In this document: one piece after another, positions 576 to 3,643 of the stretch | Numbering within the stretch: position 1 is the stretch's first letter | How the letters are laid out: each line of letters starts with the position of its first letter | The notes under the pieces: generated by a model | What the model was told of the DNA's origin: nothing | Seen by the model: the letters and a program-made list of their open reading frames with translations, nothing else | Database searches by the model: none | NCBI GenBank assembly: GCA_029977205.1 | Contig: JAPOLI010000001.1 | Span: 1-35,539, forward strand | Origin: a bacterium | GTDB lineage: Bacteria; Actinomycetota; Thermoleophilia; Miltoncostaeales; Miltoncostaeaceae | Length of the DNA: 35,539 nt | Reading direction: 5' to 3' | Program-made: the position numbers and the translations under genes

Positions 576-1997
576 TCAGCCCGAGATGGACGGGCGCGAC
601 GTCGCGCCCGTAAGCGAGGACGTCAACGCGGTGACGGCCGCGTACACATCACCGCCGTCGGCGAGCTGAGTTGTCACCTTCTGCACTGCATAGATCACAG
701 TGGTGTGGTCACGGCCCCCGAATGCCCGGCCTATTGCGGGGAGGGAGGAGTCGGTGAGCTCCCGCGACAGATACATGGCCACCTGGCGCGGCACAACGAT
801 GCGCTTGGTGCGCTTCTCGCCGACGAGGTCGTCGATGCTCACCGAGTAGTGGCGCGCCACGGCCTCCTGGATGAGGTCGATGCGCACCTCGCCCTCGCCC
901 GCCGGGAAGAGGTCGGTCAGGACCTCCTGCGCCAGGTCGACGGTGACGGGACGCCCGGAGATGGACGAGTGGGCGACCACACGGATGAGCGCACCCTCAA
1001 GTTGCCGCACGTTCGTCGAGACACGGGCGGCGATGAACGAGAGCACCTCGGGGTCGCGTATCTGGTAGCCGTCGGTCTGCACCCTCTTGCGGAGGATCGC
1101 GATGCGAAGCTCCAGGTCGGGGGGCTGGACATCCGTAATCAGGCCCATCTCGAACCGCGACCGGAGCCGGTCCTCAAGGGTCTTGATCGCGCTTGGCGGG
1201 CGATCGCTCGAGATGACGATCTGCTTGCCGTGCTCCTGGAGCGCGTTGAAGGTGTGGAAGAACTCTTCCTGGGTCTGCTCACGCCCCTCGAGCATCTGGA
1301 TGTCGTCGATGAGGAGGACGTCCGTGCCGCGATACCGGTCCTTGAAGGAGCGGATCCCCCCGTCGCGCAGCGCGTTGATGAACTCGTTGGTAAAGGTCTC
1401 CACAGACACGTACCGCACGGCAAGGCCGGGGTGGTTGTCGGTGACGTAGTGCCCGATTGCCTGGAGGAGGTGGGTCTTGCCGAGACCGACGCCACCGTAG
1501 ATGAAGAGCGGGTTGTAGGCGCGCGCGGGCGTCTCCGCCACGGCGAGCGCCGCTGCGTGGGCGAAGCGGTTGCTCGGTCCCACCACGAGCGCGTCGAAGG
1601 TGAAGCGGGACTGCAGCCGGGTGGACGCGTCCGCCGGCGACGCCGGCGCGGGCGGCTCGATGCGCGGCGGCTCGGGGGCCACGGGCGGGGTGTGCCCATC
1701 AGGTGACGGCACCTCTGCCGGTCCGACGACCTCGACCACCACGGCCACGTCGTGGCCGATGACCTCGAACAGCGCGTCGCGCACGAGGGAGTCGTAGCGC
1801 TGGACGATCCACCCGCGCGCGAACTCGGTCTCGACCCCGATGCGGAAGCCCCCATCCTCGAGGCCAAGCGCCCGCGCCCGCTCGAAGGTCAGGCTGTAGG
1901 TGGCGCTGTTCAGCGCGCCGCGCAGGCGATCCAGGACCTGCTGCCAGATGGACGCAAGCTGCTCCGCGTCCTGGATGATCGGAACGGACGCGCTCAT
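576..1997 (-). CDS. dnaA: Chromosomal replication initiator protein DnaA
   Basis: DnaA is the AAA+ ATPase that binds DnaA boxes and opens the origin. The 473-residue product has every expected part. Domain I (about 1-90) is followed by a Pro/Ala-rich domain II linker (about 92-125). The AAA+ domain III has Walker A GGVGLGKT at 168-175 and Walker B LLIDD ending at 222. Domain IV carries the DNA-binding signature GRDHTTV at 438-444. The length is typical. The ATG start overlaps the stop of the upstream GHKL-ATPase gene by one base (TGATG), so the two are probably translationally coupled. DnaA boxes flank the operon on both sides, which suggests autoregulation. Confidence 0.98.
591..610. repeat. 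20-bp perfect palindrome at the dnaA 3' end
   Basis: CGGGCGCGACGTCGCGCCCG is a perfect inverted repeat with no spacer. It lies within the last dozen codons of dnaA, facing the origin. It could fold in RNA or bind a dimeric protein; no function is known. Confidence 0.5.
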
Positions 1998-2725
1998 CAG
2001 AAGAGGGTGGCGACGATTGCGGCGCCGCGCTCGGTGAGGACACGACCGCCATCAGCGAATCGCACGACAAGACCCCGGTGCTCGAGCATCACGAGTTCGC
2101 GACCGACCTCGCCGAGGGGAAGCCCGAGCTCGCGGGCCATGGTTTCGGGATGCGCGGGGGCCATCTCCAGGAGGAGGGCCAACAGGCTTCGTTGGACATC
2201 GTTCGGGTGGCCGGGCGCCCCCTCGAGCATGGGCGCCGGCGGGGCGTCGACCGTGATGGTGACCACGGCTCCCCCGCCCAGGTTCTCCTCGATCTCCAGC
2301 GCACCGCCCTCGGCCGCGACGAGGCCCGACGCCAGGGCGAGGCCCGATCCGCAGCCGCGGACGACCGCGCGAATGGCCTCGTCCGCACTCGTGTAGCCCG
2401 GCTCCAGTGCCCGGCGGGCGTCGGCGATCCCCGGCCCGCTGTCCGACACGCGGACGGTCCGGCCCGCGTCGAGCACGGTCACGAGCGCGTCGCGGAAGTC
2501 GGCGTGGATGAGATTCTCGATCACTTCGCGCAGCGCGAGCGGCGGCACCGAGGACTCCTGCGCGACGACAGAGAAGGTCGCCTCGATCACCGCCGCCGGA
2601 GCGATGTCGCGGATCTCGGTGACTGCGGGCGGCTCGAGCGCCGCGCGGTGCACGGCGACCCGCACCACGTAGGTGCTGCCTGCGGCGTGCAGCGACGCCA
2701 GGCTGTCCGGGACTTCCGTGCTCAT
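1997..2725 (-). CDS. GHKL-type ATPase with C-terminal winged-helix domain, coupled to dnaA
   Basis: I do not recognise a named gene. The 242-residue product has a histidine-kinase-like (GHKL) ATP-binding fold. The N-box helix REVIENLIHADF (66-77) carries the Glu-Asn pair, the G1 box is DSGPGI (95-100) and the G2 box is GCGSGLALASGL (124-135). No phospho-acceptor His domain, membrane segment or receiver is visible, so it is not a standard sensor kinase. Residues about 178-242 read as a winged helix-turn-helix (alternating Leu-rich helices, then RGLVVRFADGGRVLT), so DNA binding is likely. The ATG at 2725 was chosen because the upstream extension is poorly conserved-looking. The gene precedes dnaA and overlaps it by one base. 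A regulatory or topological role at the origin is inference; a metabolic role is not excluded. Confidence 0.8.
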   Translation of the reverse strand: MSTEVPDSLASLHAAGSTYVVRVAVHRAALEPPAVTEIRDIAPAAVIEATFSVVAQESSVPPLALREVIENLIHADFRDALVTVLDAGRTVRVSDSGPGIADARRALEPGYTSADEAIRAVVRGCGSGLALASGLVAAEGGALEIEENLGGGAVVTITVDAPPAPMLEGAPGHPNDVQRSLLALLLEMAPAHPETMARELGLPLGEVGRELVMLEHRGLVVRFADGGRVLTERGAAIVATLF

Positions 2726-2736
2726 AGGGGCGCGGG

Positions 2737-2742
2737 ACGCTA
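2737..2742 (-). promoter_or_regulatory. Possible -10 for the GHKL-dnaA operon
   Basis: The minus strand reads TAGCGT (TANNNT), 11 nt before the ATG at 2725. The nearby DnaA box at 2780-2788 would sit just upstream of such a promoter. There is no clear -35. Confidence 0.3.
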
Positions 2743-2779
2743 CCAACGGGGAATGGCCGGAAACGAGCGTTCGGGGGGC

Positions 2780-2788
2780 TGTGGAGAA
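2780..2788 (-). promoter_or_regulatory. DnaA box upstream of the dnaA operon
   Basis: TGTGGAGAA on the plus strand, so TTCTCCACA on the minus strand, an 8 of 9 match. It lies about 55 bp before the first gene of the dnaA operon. Confidence 0.6.
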
Positions 2789-2883
2789 ACGGGGCACCTA
2801 TGAGCGGGAAAAACGCGTCGCCCCCGGGAGAGGCTCCCCGACGACGCGGCACTCAAAAGCCCCATATGCAGGATAAACATCAG

Positions 2884-2892
2884 TTATCCACA
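2884..2892 (+). promoter_or_regulatory. DnaA box, perfect consensus
   Basis: TTATCCACA, a full 9 of 9 match to the classical DnaA box and the best match in the window. Confidence 0.8.
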
Positions 2893-2895
2893 GGT

Positions 2896-2915
2896 ATCTC
2901 CACACCTGTGGAGCA
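2896..2915. promoter_or_regulatory. Inverted pair of DnaA-like boxes
   Basis: ATCTCCACA (2896-2904) and TGTGGAGCA (2907-2915) face each other. Their CTCCACA/TGTGGAG arms form a perfect inverted repeat with a 2-bp centre. Each is 7 of 9 to the DnaA box. The pair lies 3 bp from the perfect box. Confidence 0.5.
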
Positions 2916-3047
2916 TTTCGCCGATCGACTGGTCAAAAAGGCCCCCTCGGCGGGTTCGCAATACCGCGCAGAGGGCCCCCCGCCGCGGCTACGCAACCCC
3001 GCCGCAGCGCCGGCGCGGGTGGCCCGGGCCCACCGCCCGCCCTTTGG

Positions 3048-3053
3048 TAGTGT
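3048..3053 (+). promoter_or_regulatory. Possible -10 for the rpmH operon
   Basis: TAGTGT (TANNNT), about 65 bp upstream of the rpmH start. No convincing -35. A transcript from here would have a leader that includes the AAGGAG ribosome-binding site. Confidence 0.3.
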
Positions 3054-3101
3054 TCCCGCGTCGTGCGCCGTGTTCGAGCGGCGCGAAGTCCAGCCGCGTC
3101 C

Positions 3102-3107
3102 CAAGGA
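3102..3107 (+). promoter_or_regulatory. Ribosome-binding site of rpmH
   Basis: AAGGAG ends 11 nt before the GTG at 3119. It supports this GTG over the upstream TTG at 3044 as the start. Confidence 0.6.
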
Positions 3108-3118
3108 GCAGCAGGCGA

Positions 3119-3253
3119 GTGAAGCGCACCTATCAGCCGAACACGCGGAAGCGCAGCAAGACCCATGGCTTTCGCAAGCGCATGTCCACTCGCGCTGGCC
3201 AGGCGATCATCAAGCGGCGCCGCGCGAAGGGCCGCGCCCGCCTCTCCGCCTAG
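3119..3253 (+). CDS. rpmH: 50S ribosomal protein L34
   Basis: L34 is a small basic protein of the large ribosomal subunit. The 44-residue product begins [18 protein letters not shown] and continues through [18 protein letters not shown] to KGRARLSA, essentially the whole family signature at the usual length. The start is GTG, supported by AAGGAG upstream. It opens the rightward series rpmH-rnpA-yidD-yidC-khpB-rsmG, the classical order beside dnaA in many bacteria. Confidence 0.97.
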
Positions 3254-3265
3254 GCCGCTGGCCCC

Positions 3266-3643
3266 GTGCCGGACGGCGCCGCCCCACGAGGCAGGCGCAG
3301 CCGGATCACCCGATCCGGCGACTTCGACTCCGTATACCGCCGCGGCACATCAGCCGCGGGGCGGCACCTCGTGGTCTATGCCTTCAACCGGGGAGGCGAT
3401 GATCCCGCGCGGCTCGGGCTGTCCGTGGGGAAGCGCGTCGGTGGCGCCGTGGAGAGGAACCGCGTGAAGCGGGTCCTCAGGGAGGAGTTCGCGCGGATCT
3501 CCGCGGGGCTCGCGGCCGGCACCGACTACGTGGTCATCGCCCGGCCGGGCGCGCATGAGTACATCGAGGAGCGCGGGGCGGGGGCGCTTGGCGAGCGCCT
3601 CGAGGAGCTCGTCGGCAGGGCGGCCCCGGCGGCCGCGGCGTGA
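3266..3643 (+). CDS. rnpA: Ribonuclease P protein component
   Basis: RnpA binds the RNase P RNA and helps it remove 5' leaders from pre-tRNA. The 125-residue product carries the N-terminal RITRSGDFDSVYRRG segment and the signature RNRVKR at 64-69, followed by VLREEF. The start is GTG at 3266, 12 nt after rpmH. No later start leaves the conserved N-terminus intact. Its last codons overlap the yidD start (GTGA). The C-terminus is Ala-rich and probably disordered. Confidence 0.95.
   Translation: MPDGAAPRGRRSRITRSGDFDSVYRRGTSAAGRHLVVYAFNRGGDDPARLGLSVGKRVGGAVERNRVKRVLREEFARISAGLAAGTDYVVIARPGAHEYIEERGAGALGERLEELVGRAAPAAAA

Follow-up and report, generated by a model that had tools for sequence, protein, structure and literature searches.

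The dnaA gene of a Miltoncostaeaceae bacterium is preceded by a gene that joins a GHKL ATPase domain to a winged helix (wHTH), and genes of this type are found as a single copy before dnaA in at least three phyla, with an intact ATP site and a tail of the DNA-binding type. Because a single copy is fixed in this position across at least three phyla, with the ATP site intact and a wHTH of the regulator type, the best reading of the protein is that it regulates the dnaA operon, the origin or both in an ATP-dependent manner. That it is an ATP-dependent DNA-binding regulator, encoded at the head of the dnaA operon and next to a DnaA-box array, has about an even chance of being correct. A gene locked before dnaA provides a direct genetic handle on the regulation of DnaA beyond the usual model organisms.

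The gene and its linkage to dnaA

The DNA analyzed here (the window) is the whole 35,539-nt stretch of contig JAPOLI010000001.1 from assembly GCA_029977205.1 (Miltoncostaeaceae); the features under discussion are listed in Table 1. Two Pfam profiles pass the gathering cut-off with the GHKL-wHTH protein, HATPase_c at E=3e-9 and DprA_WH at E=6e-6, and no specific NCBIfam model reaches its cut-off for this protein. The first-pass annotation, made from the sequence alone, had the stop codon of this gene and the start codon of dnaA share the pentanucleotide TGATG, which is indeed the case: on the minus strand, one A serves both as the end of the TGA and as the beginning of the dnaA ATG.

Table 1. 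Features of the dnaA region in the window.
Feature	Position	Strand	Remarks
dnaA	576..1997	-	TIGR00362, E=1e-158, full length; ATG from 1997; start overlaps the GHKL-wHTH stop by 1 nt
GHKL-wHTH gene	1997..2725	-	ATG at 2725, TGA 1999-1997; 242 aa; gene 1 of the dnaA operon
Winged helix, residues about 175-242	2000..2203	-	AlphaFold2; conserved R209 in the recognition helix (204-216), R228 in the wing; IclR/TrmB/MarR homology
Disordered linker, residues about 161-174	2204..2245	-	Low pLDDT
GHKL ATPase domain, residues about 17-160	2246..2674	-	AlphaFold2; includes a family-specific N-terminal beta-hairpin
G2 box G124-x-G-x-G128	2342..2356	-	G124, G128 100%; G126 99%
G1 box D95-x-G-P-G99	2429..2443	-	D95, G97, G99 100%; P98 99%
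N box E67-x-x-E-N71-L-x-H74-A75	2501..2527	-	Catalytic-type Glu and Mg-binding Asn; N71, H74 100%, E67 99% of 147 homologues
Promoter-like element TTGGTAGCGT	2737..2746	-	TTGGTA identical in all 13 congener loci, minor differences beyond it
DnaA-box-like TTCTCCACA (box 4)	2780..2788	-	TCCACA core invariant
Conserved non-DnaA-box element TTTTTCCCGCTC	2802..2813	-	Between boxes 3 and 4; conserved in the genus, looser in the family
DnaA box TGTGGATAA (box 3)	2884..2892	-	Exact TTATCCACA
Palindromic DnaA-box pair TCCACAGGTGTGGA (boxes 1 and 2)	2899..2912	-	Arms unchanged across the 13 congener loci and retained in most of the family
rpmH	3119..3253	+	Divergent neighbor beyond the DnaA-box array; tblastn and synteny in the family

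Among 158 distinct homologues, 150 directly precede dnaA in the same orientation, 8 are at the end of a sequence (several of these represent chromosomes apparently opened at dnaA) and none is elsewhere; homologues scattered away from dnaA, which would have spoken against the first-pass reading, are not what these counts show. In the window's family and in two further families of the same class, every homologue is directly 5' of dnaA. A scan of a genome collection yielded 80 loci, with titles from Thermoleophilia, Miltoncostaeales, Coriobacteriia, Anaerosomatales, Armatimonadetes/ANGP1 and Clostridia MAGs; dnaA comes next in 78, and the remaining two sequences end there. The added loci (40 from Actinomycetota, 20 from Bacillota and 10 from a phylum of the CSP1-3/ANGP1 type) show the linkage wherever the sequence suffices.

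At E<=1e-15, the gene is present in 157 of 396 genomes of Actinomycetota, 38 of 43 genomes of the second phylum (CSP1-3/ANGP1 type) and 26 of 249 genomes in the phylum of a Clostridia MAG, with a single copy in nearly all carriers at this threshold; the few second rows per genome are mostly one gene split by its linker. Plasmid and phage collections contain no match to the GHKL-wHTH protein. Cultured carriers presumably include Eggerthella lenta (G380) and Rubrobacter xylanophilus (G099). The distances between the GHKL proteins correlate moderately with those between the DnaA proteins (Pearson 0.57, Spearman 0.30), and the GHKL tree mostly groups the taxa as expected, with 8 group changes compared with a minimum of 5 and with 60 after shuffling.

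Four congeners (G004, G010, G011 and G019) have neither a dnaA nor a GHKL-wHTH match, and true loss of the gene is rejected because the dnaA match is missing as well, which points to a recurrent assembly gap at the origin. Other families of the window's class, by contrast, have dnaA but no homologous ORF upstream of it (rpmH, where found, is 180-320 nt from dnaA), so that an assembly artefact is rejected for them. That these related families manage without the gene counts against the regulator reading, and so does M. tuberculosis, which is not known to carry it. Four loci from MAGs titled 'Bifidobacterium breve' and 'Acidobacteria bacterium' (L042, L044, L049, L040) are 76-91% identical to the window protein and have the same dnaA synteny; their titles look wrong.

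Domain layout and ATP site

The AlphaFold2 model of the window protein (pLDDT 85.8) comprises a confidently modelled GHKL domain, in which a beta-hairpin and one helix precede the N-box helix, a winged helix of three helices and, between the two domains, a disordered linker, and the structure model of a Bacillota homologue has the same predicted fold. Structure prediction, which had been suggested as a check on the wHTH, produces the folds of both the ATP site and the wHTH, and the C-terminal winged helix is supported by the DprA_WH match in addition to the model. Every member of two sets of the family (34 of 34 and 26 of 26) has a match to HATPase_c (PF02518). In Coriobacteriia-like homologues, the two domains are separated by very long linkers rich in Pro and Gln (L139, L140, L142, L145, L146, L158 and L159), with the wHTH still kept behind them.

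Residue conservation was counted over 147 homologues from three phyla, in which N71, H74, D95, G97, G99, G110, G124, G128, G141 and G152 are invariant. The ATPase boxes, described as intact in the first-pass annotation, are near-invariant across phyla in all three of the N, G1 and G2 motifs, and together with the modelled GHKL fold they make up an ATP site. The N box follows the pattern E-h-h-E-N-h-h-H-A, with the spacing of MutL and GyrB rather than that of histidine kinases, and its region is matched by MutL entries. In MutL and GyrB, the N-box Glu is the general base, and in MutL, GyrB and Hsp90, ATP binding dimerizes the GHKL heads; the E-x3-N arrangement is also that of SpoIIAB-type serine kinases.

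The MutL-type N box, along with the single copy and the near-universal presence in one phylum (38/43), would suit a structural accessory of replication or repair, a MutL-like ATP clamp or a helicase-loading aid that is placed in the dnaA operon for stoichiometry and is not a regulator. MutL, GyrB and Hsp90 share with the GHKL-wHTH protein the E-x3-N N box with its catalytic-type Glu but carry a transducer domain after the GHKL domain, where the present protein has the disordered linker and a wHTH of the transcription factor type, and many relatives do without the gene; we consider this explanation quite improbable.

Sensor histidine kinases have HATPase_c in common with the protein but differ in having HisKA/DHp, a sensor or membrane part and another N-box spacing. 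Neither HisKA/DHp nor receiver domains are matched in the window protein (Pfam) or in scans of the whole alignment, consistent with the initial view that the protein lacks a phosphorylation domain. The best general domain matches do include histidine-kinase ATPase domains, as would be expected of a degenerate kinase remnant that came to lie beside dnaA by chance. Within the window's genus, however, pN/pS is 0.21 in the GHKL domain and 0.12 in the wHTH, the most constrained segment, against 0.56 in the linker; given this constraint, the near-invariance of the catalytic residues over phyla and the linkage to dnaA in 150 of 158 homologues, the remnant was rejected as extremely improbable.

The winged helix

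Across phyla, the wHTH has the consensus SLSTAYRDLxxLE in the recognition helix, followed by GKRxLT in the wing, and outside the window's clade it bears a classic IclR/TrmB-like recognition helix. Pfam HTH_IclR is matched in 17 of 26 and TrmB in 14 of 26 family members, and this domain is also matched by solved structures of repressors that bind DNA, of the MarR and ArsR types; the winged-helix fold is seen in both models, that of the window protein and that of the Bacillota homologue. The recognition helix of the window's clade (GEVGRELVMLE) departs from the consensus, and the net charge of the wHTH averages about -1.5 in this clade and is 0 to +1 elsewhere. A net charge near zero is unusual for a strong DNA binder and calls for caution on DNA binding. 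Of the DNA-binding C-terminus that had been proposed, the winged helix and its homology to IclR, TrmB and MarR stand; since the window clade's own wHTH is near-neutral in charge, DNA binding in this clade is argued from the homology to the wHTH of other phyla.

Relation to known systems

The first-pass annotation knew of no named protein with this layout at dnaA, and none was found in the libraries or the open-access papers searched; papers on a GHKL-wHTH layout at dnaA are absent from the open-access literature covered. In a Foldseek search, the best match of both models is PDB 3lmm (E about 6e-7), which spans the GHKL domain and the wHTH. This structure, which we take to be DIP2311, combines a Schlafen/AlbA_2-like domain with GHKL and wHTH domains in the same GHKL-then-wHTH order. 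The window protein is about half as long, with a different arrangement of the domains (rmsd 11-15 Å), and the AlbA_2 domain has no Pfam match in it or in the family scan. We know of no linkage of the DIP2311-type family to dnaA. To our knowledge, none of the known controllers of DnaA (Hda, YabA, SirA, Soj, SeqA, DnaD, MtrA, DiaA), with which a role at DnaA or oriC is the presumed common ground, is a GHKL ATPase, and none of them is among the Pfam and NCBIfam matches shown for the GHKL-wHTH protein.

The anti-sigma kinases SpoIIAB and RsbW likewise have a stand-alone GHKL domain with E-x3-N and no phosphoacceptor, and this invariant arrangement, together with a weak similarity to SpoIIAB (TIGR01925, 19.3 bits compared with a cut-off of 135, not a full-length family match), brings up the main rival explanation, in which the protein acts directly on DnaA, either phosphorylating it as a kinase of the RsbW/SpoIIAB kind or sequestering it as an ATP-gated binding partner, with the wHTH binding protein. 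A stoichiometric partner would be expected to keep such immediate co-expression with dnaA, as is conserved here, and the slightly acidic wHTH of the window's clade also favors this explanation. Unlike SpoIIAB and RsbW, however, the GHKL-wHTH protein has an extra wHTH, with a helix of the DNA-reading type in most lineages, and no STAS partner gene; in particular, no STAS-type substrate gene lies between its gene and dnaA.

The GHKL-wHTH gene never occurs together with the DnaA-binding regulator YabA in the Bacillota genomes compared (G430, G444-G535 and further gene-positive ones), which would also be in line with action on the DnaA protein: YabA is found in 0 of 26 gene-positive genomes versus 44 of 80 gene-negative genomes (n=106; Fisher p=7e-8). 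This pattern depends on phylogeny, with 0-1 informative pairs. Functional replacement of YabA was not upheld on the DnaA tree, where each of the two traits follows lineage and too few independent pairs are left. Direct action on DnaA appears unlikely, though it is the strongest of the competitors.

Homology of the wHTH to MarR, IclR and TrmB regulators, and the fact that regulators often come first in the operons they control, are compatible with a simpler role, that of a local transcription factor that senses ATP or another ligand and autoregulates the operon without itself taking a direct part in origin initiation. A precedent is CapK/CapS, GHKL and HTH regulators that are encoded upstream of the operons they control (PMC13373217). 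CapK has the order HTH-STAS-GHKL, senses single-stranded DNA and acts on a separate STAS-wHTH repressor, in defence operons (PMC13373217). It differs from the GHKL-wHTH protein in its STAS domain, which has no Pfam match in the latter, and in its CapS partner; here the downstream gene is dnaA. Conservation over phyla solely at dnaA would be unusual for an ordinary autoregulator, and with a fixed-spacing DnaA-box array between rpmH and the gene, promoter and origin are hard to separate, so that a purely local role is distinctly unlikely.

The region upstream of the gene

The palindrome formed by DnaA boxes 1 and 2 has the pattern TCCACA-NN-TGTGGA, and most of the family retains the spacing of ~107 nt between boxes 3 and 4 despite variation in the intervening sequence. 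Comparable arrays of DnaA boxes precede the gene in many other lineages. The array at 2780-2912 and its counterparts in loci L004-L029 are a candidate oriC or DnaA operator of Miltoncostaeales. DnaA-box-like repeats are also present downstream of dnaA (435-443 and 468-476, within 400-575), and either intergenic region could therefore be the origin.

As a site for the wHTH, the conserved element TTTTTCCCGCTC, or TTTTTCCCGC, is a speculative candidate. There is a single exact copy of TTTTTCCCGC in the 1.71-Mb assembly. Because look-alikes are found upstream of dnaA in two genomes of the same class that lack the gene (L189, L193), and other phyla showed no such element, it could instead be part of the origin, and its status as a certain operator was not upheld.

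The element TTGGTAGCGT, a putative promoter, ends 11 nt before the ATG, which suggests a leaderless transcript that starts at the GHKL-wHTH gene and also carries dnaA. The divergent putative promoters of rpmH (3044-3053, plus strand) and of GHKL-dnaA (2746-2737, minus strand) have the same element, TTGGTAG[C/T]GT.

Proposed mode of action

For the ATP-dependent regulator favored here, we infer ATP hydrolysis, dimerization, DNA binding, a target site and an effect on dnaA or initiation; it is the position of the gene that points to control of replication initiation. Mg-ATP would bind in the GHKL pocket and bring the GHKL heads together as a dimer, as in MutL, GyrB and Hsp90, and hydrolysis via E67 would reset them. 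Through its pair of tethered winged helices, the dimer would engage a site within the region of the origin or the operon promoter, transcription of GHKL-dnaA would follow the ATP state, perhaps along with the assembly of DnaA on the adjacent boxes, and translation of dnaA would follow that of the preceding gene across a minimal gap or none.

A more far-reaching version is tentative, and we regard it as somewhat doubtful: the proteins would form a new, widely conserved class of initiation controllers, ATP-gated GHKL clamps with tethered winged helices that sense ATP or, much as CapK does, single-stranded DNA at the opening origin. Across much of Actinomycetota, a phylum of the CSP1-3 type and some lineages of Bacillota, they would set both the supply of DnaA and the firing of the origin, and they might do so instead of YabA.

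Translation of dnaA

From the TGATG overlap, it had been proposed that production of DnaA depends on translation of the upstream gene. The overlap itself is not conserved: among 13 congener loci, the 1-nt overlap occurs only in the window genome, and the other 12 have a stop-NNN-start arrangement (3-nt gap); in the whole family, the estimated gap between the two genes is 9 nt at the median and extends from -37 to 365 nt. The coupling nevertheless fits another feature of these loci. At the dnaA start, none of the 13 congener loci has a Shine-Dalgarno sequence as judged by the energy of the anti-SD duplex, which is 0 to -1.9 kcal/mol in all 13, compared with a mean of -3.4 kcal/mol at random sites and -7.5 kcal/mol at rpmH. 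Given this lack, coupled or re-initiated translation of dnaA is still plausible in the genus despite the non-conserved overlap. Constructs for the expression of dnaA from the carrier groups may need the upstream gene. In one locus (L020), dnaA appears frameshifted in the assembly, with two overlapping tblastn pieces (2230-2991 and 2969-3556).
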